This document shows, piece by piece, positions 28,006 to 50,187 of a DNA stretch of 64,000 nt. Origin of the DNA: Clostridia bacterium. Lineage in GTDB: Bacteria; Bacillota; Clostridia; Oscillospirales; Acutalibacteraceae. Location: positions 1-64,000 of the forward strand of contig JAFTLT010000013.1 in the NCBI GenBank assembly GCA_017452785.1, in the 5' to 3' direction. How positions within the stretch are numbered: position 1 is the stretch's first letter; each line of letters starts with the position of its first letter. Below the pieces are notes generated by a model that saw only the letters and a program-made list of their open reading frames with translations, ran no database searches and had not been told where the DNA came from. A program made the position numbers and the translations under genes.

Positions 28006-29826
28006 TTATTTATAATACTGAGCCTGAGCGTTCCACAGTTCGCTGTATTTATTGCCTGCCTTCAGCAACTGCTCGTGAGTACCTTCTTCAACAAGTCTTG
28101 CTTTATCAAACACAGCAATTCTGTCACAGAAAATGCAGCTTGAAAGTCTGTGGGAAATGTAAATTGCTGTCTTGTTTTCTGTGAATGAGTTGAAACGGCT
28201 GTAAATCTCATTTTCCGCTACGGGGTCAAGAGCTGCAGTTGGCTCATCAAGAATAACAAGTGGACTGTCCTTGTAAAGAGCTCTTGCAAGGACAAGCTTC
28301 TGTGCCACACCGCCTGAAATGTCAACACCATTTTTGTCTAGGTTTTTGTAAAGATAGGTGTTCTCTTTTTCGCTCATTCTCTCAACTCTGTCCTTGATGT
28401 TTGCTTGCTCAAGTGTGCGGTAAAGATTATCCTTGTCATATTCCTTATCAGCGGCAATGTTGTCGCAAAGAGGTACGGCAAAGAGCTTGAAATCCTGAAA
28501 TACAACGGAATAAAGCTTCATCAGACTCTCTTTCGAATACTCTTTTATGTTGATGCCGTTTATGAGTATTTCACCGCTATCCACATCATAAAGCCTGCAC
28601 ATAAGCTTGATGAAAGTGGTTTTGCCACTGCCGTTTCTGCCTACAACCGCAAGATGCTCACCGTTATGAATAGTCAGATTGATGTTCTCCAAAGCATAGT
28701 TTTCACTACCCGGGTACTTAAAGGAAACATCTTTGAATTCAATCTCAAACTCTGAGGTCAGATCTATTTCCTTTTCACCGTAAGCCATATCATCCTCGGT
28801 GTGCATTATCTCGTGGTAATAGTTTACAAGAGGTACCATTTCCTCGGTTTTACCGAAGGTTACAGCCATTTTCATAACGCCGCTGATTATCTGCATAAAG
28901 GAGCCGCAATAAAGCACAAGTGAACCGATACCGAAAAGACCGTAAAGGCCTTTAACTCCGATAAACAGATAAATACCGAAGCCTACAACCGAGCCGAGAA
29001 TTGCAATAAATGAGCTTGATTTTGCCGAGTTCATTGAGGCTTTTTTCAGTACCTGCTCACCCTCGGTTAAAATCTTGTGCGTGGCAGTTTTTTCGATAAT
29101 ATCCTGCTCCTTGTAAAGACGGATTTCCTTGCCTGATTTGTAGTCGGAGAACATATCAATAAAGTAGTAGAAAATCTTATCAAGACGGGAATATTCATCG
29201 GAAGCCACAAACCACTGCTTGTTCATCCTTGTGGCTACGATAAGCATAATGACAACCATTACCGCAATAGCACCGAAAATGCTGAGCAAGAATGCAGGTC
29301 TTTCAAAGAAGGTATCACCTGTTTTCTGAAATCCGATTTTGAAAAGAGGAAAAATTAATACGACTGAAACTATAACCGTCAGCGCACCCGAAACAAAATC
29401 CCTGAACATCCACGAAAACTGAACAAAGGCTGAAAAGACTCTGTCCTGAGCTTCTGAGTGTTTGTGGATAAGCTCTTTGAAGTTGCTGTCCTCAAGCTTT
29501 TTGAATTCAACTGAGAAAAGCTTTGAAGCAATACTTTTAAGCTCTCTGTTGTAAAGCATTGAGCGAAGCATATAGTAAATGTCGTTAAGATATCTGTTAA
29601 GGAAAAATAGAACAAAGTTAATGCCAACTGCAAGGCAGATATAGCCTATGAGCTTTTTGGCATCAGCACCCATATCAAGCAAGTCAATAATTTTTGCTGA
29701 AAACCAAATGTTGATAAAAGGCATCACACCGGTGACAACAGCCGCAGTAACAGTTGTGGGCATAAGCTTACTTTCAAGGCGGTGCATTTCTTTGAATGCA
29801 TAGGTAATAGACTTAAGCTTTTTCAT
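28006..29826 (-). CDS. ABC exporter half, permease fused to ATPase (second of pair)
   Basis: This 606-residue type IV ABC exporter has six membrane helices in residues 20-330 and a nucleotide-binding domain from about 360. Walker A is GRNGSGKT (396-403), the signature ISGGVAQK (503-510) departs from LSGGQ, Walker B is VILDEPTAALDP (about 524) and the switch is ISHRLSS. The gene overlaps the upstream ABC gene by 14 bases, so the two form a heterodimer. The substrate is unknown; peptides, lipids or drugs are typical for such pairs. Confidence 0.93.
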   Translation of the reverse strand: MKKLKSITYAFKEMHRLESKLMPTTVTAAVVTGVMPFINIWFSAKIIDLLDMGADAKKLIGYICLAVGINFVLFFLNRYLNDIYYMLRSMLYNRELKSIASKLFSVEFKKLEDSNFKELIHKHSEAQDRVFSAFVQFSWMFRDFVSGALTVIVSVVLIFPLFKIGFQKTGDTFFERPAFLLSIFGAIAVMVVIMLIVATRMNKQWFVASDEYSRLDKIFYYFIDMFSDYKSGKEIRLYKEQDIIEKTATHKILTEGEQVLKKASMNSAKSSSFIAILGSVVGFGIYLFIGVKGLYGLFGIGSLVLYCGSFMQIISGVMKMAVTFGKTEEMVPLVNYYHEIMHTEDDMAYGEKEIDLTSEFEIEFKDVSFKYPGSENYALENINLTIHNGEHLAVVGRNGSGKTTFIKLMCRLYDVDSGEILINGINIKEYSKESLMKLYSVVFQDFKLFAVPLCDNIAADKEYDKDNLYRTLEQANIKDRVERMSEKENTYLYKNLDKNGVDISGGVAQKLVLARALYKDSPLVILDEPTAALDPVAENEIYSRFNSFTENKTAIYISHRLSSCIFCDRIAVFDKARLVEEGTHEQLLKAGNKYSELWNAQAQYYK

Positions 29827-31600
29827 GACTTAACACCTGCCCTTCCTTGTAATAGTAGCTCTGAAGCTGATACATTCTGTAATATCCTCCCTTGAGTTCC
29901 ATCAGCTCCTCGTGTGTACCGCTTTCTGTAATTCTGCCGTCAGATACAAAGAGGATGCGGTCACAGAAAAGAGTTGAGGAAAGTCTGTGAGAGATGAAAA
30001 AGGATATTTTATTCTTTGTCAGCTCATTGTATTTGAGGTACAGTTCATTTTCTGCTATCGGGTCAAGAGCAGCTGTAGGCTCATCGAGAATAAGTACGGG
30101 AGCATTTTTATAAACGGCTTTTGCAAGAAGTAGCTTTTGCTTTTCACCACCTGAAAAATCAGCCGCATCCTTGTAAACATCTTTAACCATAAAGGTGTTT
30201 TCTTTTTTGTCAAGACTTTCAATTTTCTCTCTGATACCTGCCTTTTCAAATGCAGAGTACAGCTTTTCCTTATCATAATCGGAAGTGAAACAGATGTTTT
30301 CCGCAATAGTCATAGGCATAAATGTGTAATCCTGAAAAACGGGAGAAAAAAGGTCAAAGAAATCACTCTTTGAAATATCCTTACTGCTTACGCCGTTAAC
30401 AAGTATTTCACCCTCGCTCGGGTAGTACAGACCGCAAAGAAGCTTCACCGCTGTAGTTTTGCCTGCACCGTTTTCACCAACGATTGCAATATTTTCACCT
30501 GCGTTGACCTTAAAGGACATATTTTTTATTGTACTTTCCTCTGCGGCAGGGTACCTGAAAGAAACATCTTTAAACTCGATTGACGTTACATCACCGAGCT
30601 TATGTGATATCTTGTCAGCATTATTTTCATTCTCAGCCTCGGTAAAGTCACGGAAGGCATGACAGTCATTACAGCAACGTTCTAAATCTGACACGCAGAT
30701 AACAAGATTCATAATCCAGTTGGAAAAGCCTGTAATGATACCGAAATAGAAAATGAAATCAGAAACGCTGAGCTCGTTTTTGTAAACCAGATAAACAAGA
30801 TAGGCATAGGCAACAAGCTCTCTTATCATATTGAGAAAAGCTCTTGTTCCGCTGACATTGAAGCTCTGACGCATATACTTGCCCGTTATCTTCTGAAGCT
30901 CATAAACAAACTTGGCATAAGCAGAAATGAAATAGTCGGAAAAACCGTAAAGTCTGATATCCTTTGCGGCAGAGTTATCCTTACTCAGCTCGTAATAGTA
31001 GTCAAGTTTTACAAAGATACTGCCTCTTGCCTTTTTAACATTCTTCTCTTTTTCGTTGAGATAACGAAGAAGGAAAAACTCGCCCACACAGGTAAGAAGT
31101 ATAAGCAGAATCATCATAATGTTGATTTTATAAATGAGTGTAAGGGAAGTTATTACGCCGAGTACACAAACCAGAAACTGATTGCAAAGGGTGATAAAGT
31201 ACGAAGACGAAGACCAGTAGCTACGGTAAAATTCCATAGCTATTTTATTCTTTTCTCTGCCCTCAAGGCTTTCGATGTTTATGTAGTCTGTGTGTATGTT
31301 TTTCTTAAAAGCCATAACCGCATAACGCATACGGATTACTCTCGCACTTCCCTGCAGAAGCTCATTGAGAAATGGGTCAAGCCAGGTTGTAACGGTAACA
31401 AGTACACTTAAAAGTGCCACTATTAAGGTAAGTTTACCAACAGTAACGCCCTCATTTATGCAGTCAATCATTGCTTTGGGGATAAAGGCTGTTATGATAG
31501 GAAGAAAAACCATTGCGGGAACTCTGATAGAAAAGTAGATAAGACTTTTCTTGTCCCACTCTATCCAGTTTTTAATCATATACTTTAAGTTGTCTTTCAT
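29813..31600 (-). CDS. ABC exporter half, permease fused to ATPase (first of pair)
   Basis: This 595-residue partner has the same layout: membrane domain in about 20-310 and nucleotide-binding domain with Walker A GENGAGKT (375-382), signature FSGGE (482-486), Walker B VLILDE (502-507) and H538. A much longer frame opens at 31843, but its first 81 codons run through a MITE. The ATG at 31600 with AAGGAG ahead of it is the true start. No promoter is seen in the 300 bases just upstream except within the inserted elements. The operon therefore seems to depend on the leader region at 31900-32400. Confidence 0.93.
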   Translation of the reverse strand: MKDNLKYMIKNWIEWDKKSLIYFSIRVPAMVFLPIITAFIPKAMIDCINEGVTVGKLTLIVALLSVLVTVTTWLDPFLNELLQGSARVIRMRYAVMAFKKNIHTDYINIESLEGREKNKIAMEFYRSYWSSSSYFITLCNQFLVCVLGVITSLTLIYKINIMMILLILLTCVGEFFLLRYLNEKEKNVKKARGSIFVKLDYYYELSKDNSAAKDIRLYGFSDYFISAYAKFVYELQKITGKYMRQSFNVSGTRAFLNMIRELVAYAYLVYLVYKNELSVSDFIFYFGIITGFSNWIMNLVICVSDLERCCNDCHAFRDFTEAENENNADKISHKLGDVTSIEFKDVSFRYPAAEESTIKNMSFKVNAGENIAIVGENGAGKTTAVKLLCGLYYPSEGEILVNGVSSKDISKSDFFDLFSPVFQDYTFMPMTIAENICFTSDYDKEKLYSAFEKAGIREKIESLDKKENTFMVKDVYKDAADFSGGEKQKLLLAKAVYKNAPVLILDEPTAALDPIAENELYLKYNELTKNKISFFISHRLSSTLFCDRILFVSDGRITESGTHEELMELKGGYYRMYQLQSYYYKEGQVLSHEKA

Positions 31601-31636: not shown

Positions 31637-31910
31637 AAGTTGACGAGCATAATCCGAAACAGTTTTTTGAATGCGGATTTCCGCCAATGTATTGTTAAAA
31701 TACTCGTAAATCCGAAAGGATTTACTGCGTTTTGTGCCGCAGCTTGACAAAAATCCGCTATTCAAAAAATCTTCGACCTGAAAGTGAGGATTTTTTATTG
31801 GATCTTTGGCGGCTGAGCACGAAGAAAGGCTGACGCCTTTCAAGGACGAAACACCGAAAAGACTTAAAAAAGACCGCCTTCAGGATATTTCGGATTATAC
31901 TCGTCAACTT
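31637..31910. mobile_element. 274-bp MITE with 23-bp terminal inverted repeats
   Basis: The left end (31637-31659, AAGTTGACGAGCATAATCC then GAAA) and the right end (31888-31910) are inverted copies with one mismatch. A nested inverted repeat lies inside: TTTTTTGAATGCGGATTT near 31662 against AAATCCGCTATTCAAAAAA near 31749. There is no transposase. It sits in the leader of the ABC operon, between the structured RNA and the ATG. Confidence 0.75.
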
Positions 31911-32003: not shown

Positions 32004-32176
32004 AAAAAAAGTGTGTGCAAACCGAAGTCCTGCACACACGAAAAATGCAAAGCCTCGTTTTGCTACCACACAAACTTTCGGACAAATCTCACAGAGAACG
32101 CCAAAATAGAAGCCTGCATTTTTACCTAAATAAAAACACGACTCCGCAAAATCTGTCCATATTAAGTTTGTGTGGT
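32004..32176 (-). ncRNA. Structured RNA, copy 1, in the ABC exporter leader
   Basis: This predicted minus-strand transcript of about 173 nt has its own promoter. Its 5' stem CCACACAAACTT (minus strand, 32175-32164) pairs perfectly with AAGTTTGTGTGG (32077-32066) to close a long irregular hairpin. A small hairpin GCAAA...TTTGC follows. It ends in a terminator: GTGTGTGCA (32011-32019) with TGCACACAC (32031-32039) and a 7-nt T tract. Copy 2 at 47366-47527 shares the promoter context, closing stem, TGTGTGGTAGCAAA junction and terminator type. It could be a leader/attenuator or a stand-alone RNA; the class is unknown to me. Confidence 0.65.
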
Positions 32177-32182
32177 GGGTTT

Positions 32183-32211
32183 ATTATACCAAATTGCACC
32201 ATAGAGTGCAA
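32183..32211 (-). promoter_or_regulatory. Promoter of structured RNA copy 1
   Basis: On the minus strand TTGCAC (32211-32206) and TATAAT (32188-32183) are separated by 17 bp. Transcription should start about 32176. Confidence 0.75.
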
Positions 32212-47045: not shown

Positions 47046-47072
47046 AGGACACGGTGAAAGCTGTGTCCTTTA
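47046..47072 (+). terminator. Terminator after the PAP2 gene
   Basis: AGGACAC (47046-47052) pairs with GTGTCCTTT (47062-47070), with a short T run. Confidence 0.5.
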
Positions 47073-47081
47073 TGTGTTTTG

Positions 47082-47210
47082 ACCCCTCTGTCAGCCTACA
47101 GGGCTGACATCTCCCCTTTCAGGGGCGACGAGCTGACGAAGCAGAAAGTCGGTACCGCAAAATCTCGTTGCCCCTGAAAGGGGAAATGTCTACAAAGCAG
47201 ACAAAGGGGT
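47082..47210. repeat. 129-bp near-palindromic intergenic element
   Basis: The left arm ACCCCTCTGTCAGCC...CTCCCCTTTCAGGGGCGACGAG (47082-47132) and the right arm CTCGTTGCCCCTGAAAGGGG...GACAAAGGGGT (47164-47210) are inverted copies. Each arm also holds its own small hairpin (TCAGCC...GGCTGA and CCCCTTTCAGGGG). It is the most complete copy of the family also seen at 131, 2790, 53077 and 62531. Confidence 0.7.
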
Positions 47211-47253
47211 GCCTGTTTCCTGAAGAAAAGATGTACGAAGGACAGAGGGGTTA

Positions 47254-47314
47254 GCCTCCCTCAGTAGCGAAGCTACGGCAGAGGGAGGTGGCATACGAAG
47301 TATGACGGAGGGAG
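47254..47314. repeat. GCCTCCCTC hairpin repeat with CGAAG-GACGGA tail
   Basis: GCCTCCCTC pairs with GAGGGAGG, followed by TGGCATACGAAGTATGACGGAGGGAG. This has the same plan as the GCCTTCCCC elements at 50198, 55064 and 55206, so it is likely a sister family. Confidence 0.55.
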
Positions 47315-47330
47315 TATTTTTAATTTCATC

Positions 47331-47359
47331 TTGATTTTTAAGAAGAATGGTGGTAAACT
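47331..47359 (+). promoter_or_regulatory. Promoter of structured RNA copy 2
   Basis: TTGATT (47331-47336) and TAAACT (47354-47359) are 17 bp apart. Bases GGTAAACTAAAATCACCACA align with GGTATAATAAACCCACCACA of copy 1 on the other strand. Confidence 0.6.
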
Positions 47360-47365
47360 AAAATC

Positions 47366-47527
47366 ACCACATAAATTACAGTTTAATATTACTTTAACCG
47401 GGAAAACTATCGGCATTGATGGATTTCTCTGATTAACTATATTTCGGTTGAAGTAAGCTGTTAAATTTGTGTGGTAGCAAATGAGAACCATTTTTGCAAG
47501 TGTGTCTCGTTTGCAGACACACTTTTT
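47366..47527 (+). ncRNA. Structured RNA, copy 2, leader of the DUF6273 gene
   Basis: This predicted RNA of about 162 nt folds into a long hairpin. CCACATAAATT (47367-47377) pairs with AATTTGTGTGG (47464-47474), ACAG with CTGT (47458-47461), and TTACTTTAACCG (47389-47400) with CGGTTGAAGTAA (47445-47456), with a few G-U pairs. A hairpin GCAAA/TTTGC (47477-47497) follows. It ends in terminator GTGTGTCT/AGACACAC (47500-47522) with five T. The ribosome site of the DUF6273 gene begins about 4 bases later, so a cis-acting switch with a terminator as the output is likely. No ligand class is recognised. Confidence 0.65.
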
Positions 47528-47547
47528 ATATTTGGAGGTAAAAACAA

Positions 47548-50187
47548 ATGGGAAAGACAATGAAGAAAATTTTATGTACACTGCTTGTTGTGGTTATGTG
47601 TCTGACAAGTGCACCGCTTGGTGTTTTTTTGAGTTTAGATTTTAGAGCTGAAGCTACGGATTACAAGGTTGGTGATATTGTTCAGTTTGGCTCATATCCT
47701 CAGAGCAAGGTTAAAGACGAAGCCTTGGTTGCAGAACTAAATGCCCTTACACCTGAGTGGGAAGATTGGACAAGCTATGGTTATTATTCAGGTGAAGATG
47801 ACTATGGCACAATGTTACAGGGCGACTGGATGAGATACACTGATATAGTTTACAACGGTAACAAATACCGTGGTGTGAAGTTTACGCAGTACAGACATGC
47901 ATTTCAAGATGTCAATGGTTACTATACCAACACAGTATATTGGTTTAAGTTTGAAAGTATTGATTGGCGTGTTCTTGACCCAAGCACTGGTCTTCTTATG
48001 TGTGAAACAATTATTGATTCTCAGCCATATAGCAATACAATCTATTACAACAGTAGCTATAGCTTTATATATGCTTATTTCAACGATGCTTCATATAAAA
48101 ACTATGCAAGTGATTACGAAACAAGCTCAATAAGAAAATGGCTAAATGATGATTTTTACAATACAGCCTTTACAGATAGAGAAAAGGAAGAGATAAGCAC
48201 AACAACATTAAATAACGACGGTTATTATACATCAATTGGCACAACCGGCTACGAAGCACTTGACAGCAACGAAACAAGCGACAAAATCTTTCTCCTTTCA
48301 TATAACGAAGCACGAAACAGCAATTATAGCTTTAGTTCAGATTGCAGCGATTGTGATACTGCTCGTCAAGCTGAGGGTAGTGACTACGCCAAGAGTCAGG
48401 GCCTTCATGTAAGTACGTTCGATTCCTCATACGGTTACTCAACTTGGTTGCTCCGTTCTTCGGAGTTCTGGTCGAGTGGTTGTTGCGTTGTCAGTGGATA
48501 TGGCAACCTTGGTGGTGATAACGTCAATCAGACTTCTGTGGGTGTTCGACCTGCTTTGAGACTCAATAGTATATCTGAAGAAATAATCGGACCTAATCAA
48601 CCTAACAATCCAACCGAACCCGATAATCCCAATAATCCTGATAATCCCGATAACCCTGACACTCCAAATAATCCTGATGATCCTAATAAACCTAACAATC
48701 CAACTGAACCCGATAATCCCAACAACCCTGATAATCCCAATGAACCTAACAAACCCAACGAAGAACCGGATGACCCTGAAGAAGACGATAATGATGAGTT
48801 TTATCATCCTGAAGTCTTAGAGCCGCGTATTGACTGTTATGATACATCAGTTGAATCTTATAAAAATGCTTTTTTAGGTGGCGATTGGAATACCTTTAAA
48901 ATAACAGGTGAAATCACAAATTATGATGAATATCATAACTTAGAAAATATATGGATAACTATAAAATCGCCTGACGGAAATATCATAAAATTTGATAGTA
49001 ACGAGAAAAATGAAGTAACTTTTCCTTTGGGTCGTTCAATAGGAACTCAAAAAAGTAGTGATTTTAAATGTAAAGCTTATGTAAATAGGGATTATATGCC
49101 TGAAGGGGGTACCGATAATATTACACTTACATGTATACTAAATGGTGATATAAATGGTAAAAAAGTTGAAGGTATATATACAACTTTCAATGTTAAGGTT
49201 ACGAACTTGAGTTATAAAGAAGATAAGCCAAAGAGAAACAAAACAGTACATGAACTGCTTGAGCAGATGAGAGATTTAGTGCCTGCTTATGAATCCTATT
49301 ATAGACAAAATATTGGTTACCTTGTTGCGGGTACCGGATTGACTTATGATATTTTAGCGGTTGAATCGGCGTATGGGTTAGGTGATATCGATAACGGCTT
49401 GAATTTAGCTAATATGGCTTATGATTTGAGCTTTTACCTCGCCGGAATCACTAATCCCACTCCGCAGGAATTTGGAGAACTGTTTCTTGACCAACTTTCT
49501 GCCAATACAGAAGGAGAGGTTGATAAGATAATAGACTATGTAACCAATAGACTAAGAAGTAACAGATATTTTAACGGATTTATAAAATGGTGTTGTGAAG
49601 AGTATGGTGTTGATGCAGGTGAATATGCAAAGTACAGCAACCATTGTCCCACAGATATTATAGTTACCGACGAGTTCGGAGATGTTGTGTTAAAAATCAT
49701 AAATGATAAAATTGTAATATGTGATGATTATGTTTCTGCATATGTATTTGAGGGTAATAAAACAATTTATTTGCCCACAAGCATTGAGCATGAAATTGAA
49801 ATCATTGCAACCGATAACGGTAAAATGGATTACAGTGTAGAAACAGTTACTAAGCATGGTGAAAAACGAGTTATAGAGTATAAAGATGTGTCTCTTATAA
49901 AGGATAAATCATATACTGCAACTGCACCGAGTGATAAATCAAGCAAAACAGATGTGTATAACCTTGTGACAGAAAACGGAACTGTGGTAAAAGCTGATAA
50001 CGAACAAATTGTCCACACCTTCGACGGCTCAGAGTGCATCAATTGCGATTATGACAAAGCCGACGAATGTGACTGTAAATGTCACACAGACCGTCCGTTT
50101 GCAAAATTCTTCTTTAAGATTAAGCTCTTCTTCTGGAAGCTCTTCAAGAAAAATCCTGTCTGCGATTGCGGCATGGAACATTATTAA
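47548..50187 (+). CDS. Secreted DUF6273 surface protein with Asn/Pro linker and Cys/Phe C-terminal tail
   Basis: This 879-residue protein has a signal peptide ending near residue 37 (CLTSAPLGVFLSLDFRAEA). A DUF6273 domain follows (about 38-350) with FGSYPQSKVKDEALVAELN, FESIDWRVLDPSTGLLMC, SSIRKWLNDDFYNTAF and WLLRSSEF. A low-complexity Asn-Pro-Asp/Glu linker covers about 350-412, where short PDNPNNP units repeat. A second, unknown domain follows (about 415-830). The tail has CDCKCH, then hydrophobic Phe/Leu/Lys-rich residues, then CDCGMEHY. The 1199-residue LRR protein at 55490 shares this tail and the signal-peptide motif. Structured RNA copy 2 lies in its leader. Confidence 0.85.
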   Translation: MGKTMKKILCTLLVVVMCLTSAPLGVFLSLDFRAEATDYKVGDIVQFGSYPQSKVKDEALVAELNALTPEWEDWTSYGYYSGEDDYGTMLQGDWMRYTDIVYNGNKYRGVKFTQYRHAFQDVNGYYTNTVYWFKFESIDWRVLDPSTGLLMCETIIDSQPYSNTIYYNSSYSFIYAYFNDASYKNYASDYETSSIRKWLNDDFYNTAFTDREKEEISTTTLNNDGYYTSIGTTGYEALDSNETSDKIFLLSYNEARNSNYSFSSDCSDCDTARQAEGSDYAKSQGLHVSTFDSSYGYSTWLLRSSEFWSSGCCVVSGYGNLGGDNVNQTSVGVRPALRLNSISEEIIGPNQPNNPTEPDNPNNPDNPDNPDTPNNPDDPNKPNNPTEPDNPNNPDNPNEPNKPNEEPDDPEEDDNDEFYHPEVLEPRIDCYDTSVESYKNAFLGGDWNTFKITGEITNYDEYHNLENIWITIKSPDGNIIKFDSNEKNEVTFPLGRSIGTQKSSDFKCKAYVNRDYMPEGGTDNITLTCILNGDINGKKVEGIYTTFNVKVTNLSYKEDKPKRNKTVHELLEQMRDLVPAYESYYRQNIGYLVAGTGLTYDILAVESAYGLGDIDNGLNLANMAYDLSFYLAGITNPTPQEFGELFLDQLSANTEGEVDKIIDYVTNRLRSNRYFNGFIKWCCEEYGVDAGEYAKYSNHCPTDIIVTDEFGDVVLKIINDKIVICDDYVSAYVFEGNKTIYLPTSIEHEIEIIATDNGKMDYSVETVTKHGEKRVIEYKDVSLIKDKSYTATAPSDKSSKTDVYNLVTENGTVVKADNEQIVHTFDGSECINCDYDKADECDCKCHTDRPFAKFFFKIKLFFWKLFKKNPVCDCGMEHY

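Follow-up and report, generated by a model that had tools for sequence, protein, structure and literature searches.

A widespread leader RNA family of Clostridia, probably transcription attenuators, with a readable chain of alternative helices

The window, which is the whole stretch of 64,000 nucleotides that was analysed, contains two copies of a structured leader RNA. Each has a promoter of its own and is very probably a cis-acting transcription attenuator. The leader belongs to a family that is widespread and uncatalogued and whose putative switching chain is unusually readable. The family and the anatomy of its switch are evident in the sequences, which suggest in addition that the switch works in cells and answers a signal. 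In its parts the leader resembles the transcription-attenuating riboswitches, and its standing as a riboswitch in the strict sense would depend on a ligand. The first-pass annotation had proposed a cis-acting choice between termination and expression; compensatory changes, a co-evolving antiterminator, placement before diverse genes and the lack of an Rfam match support that proposal.

Two leader units in the window and their genes

Copy A lies on the plus strand and copy B on the minus strand. In the following list P1 to P4 are helices, and a5, a3, b, c and d are strands of the alternative helices described below.

47331-47547, plus: copy A, whole unit with promoter, structured RNA, terminator and ribosome site
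47331-47359, plus: promoter, -35 box TTGATT (47331-47336) and extended -10 TGGTAAACT (-10 box TAAACT, last base 47359)
47366-47475, plus: putative sensor domain (MFE fold; matched by covariance model R1, built without copy A)
47366-47377 with 47464-47475, plus: P1, extended by 47378-47382 with 47457-47461 (MFE fold)
47385-47388, plus: AATA junction
47389-47400 with 47445-47456, plus: P2 (MFE fold)
47401-47405 with 47424-47428, plus: P3 (MFE fold)
47407-47412 with 47417-47422, plus: apical hairpin P4 (MFE fold)
47413-47429, plus: strand a3, partner of a5 (P3/P4) or of b (family co-evolution)
47477-47497, plus: switch strand, antiterminator 5' half GCAAATGAGA (47477-47486) overlapping b (47482-47497)
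47499-47527, plus: intrinsic terminator, stem 47499-47507 with 47515-47523, T run to 47527
47505-47514, plus: terminator apex, strand c, the antiterminator 3' half
47534-47539, plus: ribosome site GGAGGT, 6 bases after the T run
47548-50187, plus: gene after copy A, ATG at 47548, 879 aa, DUF6273, N-terminus of secreted or surface type
32211-32004, minus: copy B with promoter; RNA span 32176-32004
32183-32211, minus: promoter, -35 box TTGCAC (32211-32206) and extended -10 TGGTATAAT (32191-32183)
32065-32176, minus: putative sensor domain (fold)
32176-32164 with 32077-32065, minus: P1
32159-32142 with 32096-32079, minus: P2 with its extension
32139-32130 with 32125-32116, minus: P4
32146-32131 and 32124-32109, minus: strands a5 and a3
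32039-32063, minus: switch strand, antiterminator 5' half (32063-32053) overlapping b (32056-32039)
32027-32017, minus: antiterminator 3' half
32004-32039, minus: intrinsic terminator, stem 32039-32031 with 32019-32011, T run to 32004
29813-31600, minus: gene after copy B, ABC transporter, 595 aa, ATG at 31600
28006-29826, minus: second ABC half transporter, next after the gene of copy B

Direct inspection of the sequence placed the promoter boxes, hairpin, terminator and ribosome site of copy A where the first-pass annotation had put them, and copy B, on the minus strand with a promoter of its own, follows the same plan as had been claimed. The T run was also correctly said to precede the ribosome site, although the gap is 6 bases and not about 4; the run ends 20 bases before the ATG. 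Both copies fold better than dinucleotide shuffles (z -6.98 for copy A and -6.50 for copy B), none of 200 shuffles being as good in either case. In copy A the antiterminator consists of ten pairs between GCAAATGAGA and TCTCGTTTGC (-14.7 kcal/mol), and the a3·b duplex (-13.2 kcal/mol) is interrupted by internal loops. The a3·b duplex of copy B reaches -17.0 kcal/mol, and its antiterminator helix is formed in the truncated nascent fold and absent from the complete fold. The second small hairpin that had been reported (AGCAAA...TTTGC) is present in single folds of both copies but does not co-evolve; the stretch is one strand of the antiterminator helix and overlaps the second alternative helix, the one with the apical hairpin.

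The protein encoded after copy A matches DUF6273 (Pfam PF19789) with an E-value of 7.7e-22. Just upstream of its promoter, positions 47060-47320 are rich in repeats, inverted repeats among them, and have 54 full or partial matches in the same genome (including the stretch itself), which marks them as a dispersed repeat. The gene of copy B starts 403 bases after the T run. Its relatives, which form one blastp cluster, start 133-136 bases after the T run at four loci (L123, L144, L152 and L165), 159 bases after it at L185 and 220 at L090. Between the terminator of copy B and the ABC gene, positions 31641-31906 have two more genomic copies at 75% identity (on contigs C30 and C4); because the gap at the four loci is so much shorter, this segment looks like an inserted element.

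Distribution, unit layout and downstream genes

Eighteen sequences, copy B among them but not copy A, served to build the covariance model R1, which has 138 positions and 39 pairs. The model found copy A at 42 bits (E 4.2e-7); copy B scored 118.5 bits but is itself one of the training sequences. The first-pass annotation was right about a second copy in the window, yet two is not the total for the genome, which has seven matches at E ≤0.01 (the weakest at 0.002). The covariance-model search of Clostridia that it had suggested returned many matches, with covarying stems and diverse genes downstream. Over genome draws that overlap and each contain the own genome, with rough E-values and with copy numbers that are lower bounds because the large draws score few candidates per genome, R1 matched 30 of 35 genomes of the same genus (own included, E 0.01, up to 20 matches per genome), 74 of 250 genomes and 51 of 135 genera of the same family (E 0.001), 106 of 394 genomes and 63 of 169 genera of the same order (E 1e-4, own included), and 63 of 341 genomes and 41 of 203 genera of the same class (own included). 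In the phylum-wide draw, which doubles as a control for false hits, the own genome alone matched (1 of 249). Searches by other means also found matches: blastn with copy B matched 24 of 60 relatives, and a gapped P1 pattern occurred in 14 of 250 same-family genomes, compared to 3 for the backward pattern. The pattern GTGTGTTAGCAAA on contigs C42 and C59 had no unit in the surrounding sequence examined. An exact pattern found 95 stretches in a species collection; the 80 listed were all titled as metagenome-assembled genomes, and many of the titles name the rumen or hindgut of goat, sheep, deer, buffalo, horse or rabbit.

Neither the whole window nor the units in the loci of ten relatives had an Rfam 15 match at the gathering score, and the first-pass annotation had likewise recognised no known riboswitch consensus; scans at permissive settings, run on both copies and on seven other loci, returned sub-threshold matches only. 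The family is often present in several copies per genome, and these leaders may be among the commoner regulatory leaders of these gut Clostridia. Compensatory changes together with Clostridia-wide matches before diverse genes bear out the conserved RNA family that had been proposed, and a chance origin was rejected. An origin as a phage or plasmid element was also rejected: one IMG/VR contig carried a unit, none did with a third pattern, and there was no plasmid match. On the one viral-collection contig (L214, 864-1001) the score and the lipoprotein gene are as at the leader of L160, and the neighbouring frames presumably encode a WYL-type regulator and a tyrosine recombinase; the unit perhaps lies in an integrated element. 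One record titled as a phage ("Bacteriophage sp.", human faeces, MT835845.1; L286, 2077-2203) has a unit with a lipoprotein-like gene behind it. One of the frames nearby, which we take to be YicC-like, suggests that this record may be a bacterial scaffold. Among catalogued RNAs, Rfam Gut-1 RNA lies near the unit of L030 (1086-1159, minus) and a ZMP/ZTP riboswitch near that of L009 (2550-2629, plus).

Unit layout was analysed on 133 rows, or 123 distinct units, from three R1 hit lists, of which 15 of 58, 32 of 45 and 86 of 88 rows were kept. Rows dropped from the first list were loci in the third list, weak or on the opposite strand; two dropped from the second were identical to L124 and the rest were weak or on the opposite strand. 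Fifty bases of upstream sequence were available for 121 of the 123 units. In these a promoter stood at a fixed distance before the first base of P1, with the following bases kept: T at -35 (95%), T at -15 (93%), G at -14 (93%), A at -11 (98%) and T at -7 (93%). In 94 of 123 units the T run was followed by a ribosome-like site no more than 25 bases away. The commonest spacing was 5-8 bases, seen in 65 of the 101 units that have such a site within 60 bases. Such a site together with an ORF of at least 30 aa was found within 250 bases in 105 of 123 units, although 8 of these reach past a following unit. Of the 106 units that come last in their cluster, 68 had both a ribosome site in the 25 bases after the T run and an ORF of 30 aa or more, a combination found at 48 of 1060 places drawn at random from these loci; the other 38 last units lacked it. 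The succession of promoter, leader, intrinsic terminator and ribosome site of a gene that is expected of an attenuator is therefore present, in its strict form, in those 68.

The remaining 17 of 123 units precede another unit instead of a gene. The 106 clusters comprised 95 single units, 6 doubles, 4 triples and 1 quadruple, a tandem share that is overstated, as tandem hits had been one reason for choosing the regions from which 32 of the hits came. Three arrays, with repeats of about 200 bases, were read base by base, and every unit in them had its own promoter and terminator. In the row of four units at L073 (G278 C26), the P1 of the first and third units is of ACCACAC type and that of the second and fourth of GCGACA/GTCACA type, an alternation that looks like the duplication of a pair of units. 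At L182 two units diverge (126-262, minus, and 630-757, plus) with about 370 bases between them.

Downstream genes were diverse and often encoded membrane or surface proteins. Of 93 listed proteins, 89 were sent to Pfam, PADLOC and NCBIfam (the relatives of the copy B gene at L144, L152, L165 and L185 were excluded), and 62 Pfam families were found, the commonest being SHOCT (7), BspA-type LRR (6), zinc ribbon (6) and DUF6273 (4). A simple script, run with no genome background, assigned a charged, hydrophobic N-terminus to 45 of the 93 and a membrane-like stretch to 64. By blastp, 126 downstream proteins fell into 78 clusters, of which 64 had a single member; related genes keep the unit across genera or families, for example at L012, L038 and L281 and at L005, L121 and L259. 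No metabolic pathway stands out, which would fit a signal of a global kind better than feedback by a single product. Arrays in two same-genus genomes precede related SLOG/DprA-like genes (in the downstream set of L072, L073 and L074), and another array (L074) precedes what is presumably an XRE-like gene; YAcAr (PF10686) occurred in 2 of 89 proteins. A role of the downstream genes in defence was considered and rejected, as PADLOC matches were scattered, with at most 3 of 89 per model among the 25 of 45 models listed. NCBIfam NF053862 (anti-phage phosphoesterase) matched 3 of 89, and the single PADLOC matches included PD-T4-6 and GajB.

Covariation of the sensor domain and the switch strands

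The alignment A6 contained 118 hits, 114 of them distinct, one being a reverse-strand artefact (L174). Its 100 sources were 74 loci of the main R1 hit list, 20 further loci, five loci found earlier and the window; seven loci judged to be duplicated or truncated (L123, L165, L176, L183, L185, L187 and L190) were left out. Over the 114 distinct sequences, 92.2% of cells were in standard pairs, compared to 39-51% in slid controls; 37 of 39 pairs changed on both sides, which none of 500 shuffles matched, and there were 1025 double-change cells compared to 322.6 in shuffles. The claim that changed bases still pair, made from two copies, is therefore upheld at family scale. P1 by itself was 97.5% paired, with both-sided changes in 14 of 14 pairs. 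A second fetch from the order and class draws (48 hits, 44 of them new) gave 92.5% paired and 34 of 39 pairs changing on both sides. P1 occurs in the variants ACCACA, GCGACA, GCCACA, GCCAAAC and others, each with the matching 3' strand. In the second set its first pair was G-C in 27 and A-U in 20, and its third pair C-G in 34 and G-C in 12, while the fourth pair was A-U in 113 of 114 sequences of A6. The motif AAUA near the P1/P2 junction was found in 127 of 161 units, compared to 62 in shuffles. Because the alignments were fitted to R1, these pair counts lean towards the structure, which is not so for the duplex tests described below, as they compare no columns.

The stretch after P1, GCAAA(N)CGAAGU...UGCAUUUUUCG, holds the switch strands. 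Its first part can pair with the terminator apex c, forming the antiterminator. Its second part, b, repeats a5, the 5' strand of the apical hairpin, and can pair with a3, the 3' strand of that hairpin. Each of these helices was examined by comparing the pairing of a strand with its own partner to the pairing of the same strand taken from other units (Table 1). The 157 distinct units consisted of a first set of 113 (from the 114 rows of A6; one had no terminator by the rule applied) and the 44 new ones, and counts given for 161 units retain 4 duplicates.

Table 1. Duplex tests, own versus other units (z; 157 units, then 40 representatives below 65% identity)
a5·a3: -17.9; -8.8
a5·d: -20.0; -11.7
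a3·b: -20.5; -11.0
antiterminator: -18.3; -10.1
b·c: -14.2; -6.4
a5·c (outside the model): -0.1; -0.7
d·b (outside the model): +1.6; 0.0
a3·c (outside the model): -1.4; -0.5
a5·b (outside the model): -0.6; +1.7

The two sets agreed when taken separately, with z of -17 for a3·b and -15.7 for the antiterminator in the first 113 units (reversed control -2.1) and of -9.4 and -7.8, respectively, in the 44 new units. The controls were not entirely flat: reversed d with a5 gave -2.5 and -4.2, and a3·c gave -2.4 in the 44 new units. By columns, the terminator was 95.1% paired (82 double-change cells, 19.2 in shuffles), the antiterminator 83.4% (69 and 32.0) and a3·b 92.6% (96 and 32.0), although the 10 both-sided pairs of a3·b were no excess over shuffles (8.4; 66 of 500 reach 10). 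Agreement was weaker for a5·d, the extension of P2, with 70.2% of cells paired on A6; here the number of double-change cells exceeded shuffles, unlike the number of both-sided pairs, 8, which did not (7.3; 197 of 500 reach it). The strands of P1 were also tried as an antiterminator with the terminator halves and were rejected, as z was only -2.7 and -4.4 with percentiles of 0.52-0.57.

Mean energies over 161 units were -15.1 kcal/mol for the terminator, -14.8 for the antiterminator duplex and -15.8 for the a3·b duplex, near-equal values such as a bistable switch would need. When the terminator was cut short, an antiterminator-like helix appeared in the MFE fold of 160 of 161 units, compared to 118.5 with shuffled strands, which makes this a weak test. 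With the complete 3' region folded alone, the antiterminator was in the MFE fold of 63 of 161 units, copies A and B not among them. The parts of the unit, their conservation, their co-evolution and the near-equality of the mean energies are direct observations. They include two hallmarks: an antiterminator that excludes the terminator and is backed by co-evolution, as in attenuators, and, as in riboswitches, a sensor domain of conserved structure with an expression platform coupled to it.

Proposed switching mechanism, rival explanations and known RNAs

The RNA would start at about the first base of P1, and P1, P2 and the apical hairpin would form the sensor domain. Five strands would carry the switch. 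The apical hairpin supplies a5 and a3, the 3' side of P2 supplies d, b directly follows P1, and c is at the terminator apex. The five would be linked as a chain, d-a5-a3-b-c, of four helices in which neighbours share a strand, so that two compatible sets result. In the OFF set, d·a5 and a3·b would be formed, c would be free, the terminator would fold and the RNA would stop at the T run. In the ON set, a5·a3 would be formed and b would be free, and GCAAA(N)CGAAGU would pair with ACUUCGGUUUGC in the apex of the terminator, giving b·c; with the terminator broken, polymerase would enter the gene, the ribosome site usually lying within a few bases. A signal, whether a small molecule, a protein or an ion, would act on the sensor domain and shift the balance. 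Termination itself, the assignment of the two sets to ON and OFF in cells and the existence of a signal are predictions from sequence. Since a3·b crosses P2 as a pseudoknot, the OFF set would need a sharp bend or the opening of P1, a topological cost that counts against it. Because the four exclusive helices can be read from co-evolution, the mechanism makes exact predictions for a few mutants, and the defined sensor domain is a starting point for a search for the signal. The mostly uncharacterised surface and membrane genes behind the leaders would together form a regulon.

We go further only tentatively, with a confidence just short of even: the leaders may be an uncatalogued, class-wide, riboswitch-like RNA whose five-strand relay, in up to about 20 units per genome, serves accessory genes (often membrane, surface or regulatory) in gut Clostridia, responding to a signal not so far known to work via RNA, with tandem units as serial gates or as a source of short RNA. 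A sub-case of the attenuator is that the signal is a protein, an RNA-binding regulator, and the sensor its binding site. This is a possibility that we hold to be somewhat doubtful: 62 Pfam families in 89 proteins would fit a global regulator, the AAUA junction is kept, and several positions of P1 are constant in sequence and not in pairing alone (the A-U fourth pair, for example), whereas the first and third pairs of P1 vary by matched changes.

It is unlikely that the units are stand-alone, multi-copy small RNA genes, acting in trans or as decoys, with the gene behind the terminator incidental. Units with their own promoter and terminator would suit such genes, as would the number of matches per genome and the 11 of 106 clusters that hold two to four tandem units (complete in the three arrays read, in a share inflated by the choice of regions). 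Against this, close ribosome sites with ORFs far exceed their frequency at random places, their usual spacing is 5-8 bases from the T run, and an antiterminator overlapping the terminator apex would make little sense in an RNA that needs only an end. Ribosome-mediated attenuation by a leader peptide is very improbable and was rejected for want of a conserved frame. Although several units have a frame with no stop before the TAG of GTGTGGTAG, this frame is no more open than the others (16.4 codons compared to 14.1 and 18.8), a strong ribosome site with a start was found in 9 of 113 leaders compared to 12.8 in shuffles, and no conserved short ORF with a ribosome site emerged from the 113 units. 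Least probable of all, with next to no chance of being right, is 6S or another catalogued RNA. A 6S-like stand-alone RNA had been named as the main alternative, and the units do have a closed hairpin as long as about 110 nt together with a promoter and a terminator. That reading fails because the genome has a separate 6S RNA above the cut-off (contig C4:19882-20067), the window has no match to RF00013 or any other Rfam entry at the gathering score, and the genome carries seven units.

No description of the leader RNA was found in the paper titles and opening parts of abstracts searched or in passages of PMC8040213 and PMC11109978, and an unnamed entry is possible in supplementary lists such as theirs. 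The likeness to 6S RNA (RF00013) extends to the long hairpin, promoter, terminator and length, while the family here consists of multi-copy leaders with switch strands. 6S RNA usually has one or two copies per genome. The c-di-GMP riboswitches stand in many copies per genome before unrelated surface, membrane and regulatory genes. The family here shares this arrangement, yet no Rfam match to them was found in the loci scanned. In type III toxin-antitoxin systems, ToxI is an RNA with a terminator directly before a gene, sometimes in tandem. An RNA and terminator before a gene, sometimes in tandem, are also found here, but the repeats are of about 200 bases and each has a promoter and a terminator. 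ToxI is mentioned in a passage of PMC8040213. Toxins of the ToxN/CptN/TenpN type were absent from the 25 listed of the 62 Pfam families in the 89 downstream proteins.

Transcription-attenuating riboswitches and leaders have, in a 5' leader, a conserved structured domain, then an antiterminator and a terminator that exclude each other, then a ribosome site. The units described here are alike in having the domain followed by an exclusive antiterminator and terminator before the ribosome site. They differ in that no common gene function is seen downstream, in being one fixed unit of promoter, RNA and terminator, complete copies of which are sometimes in tandem, and in the chain of four helices over five strands.
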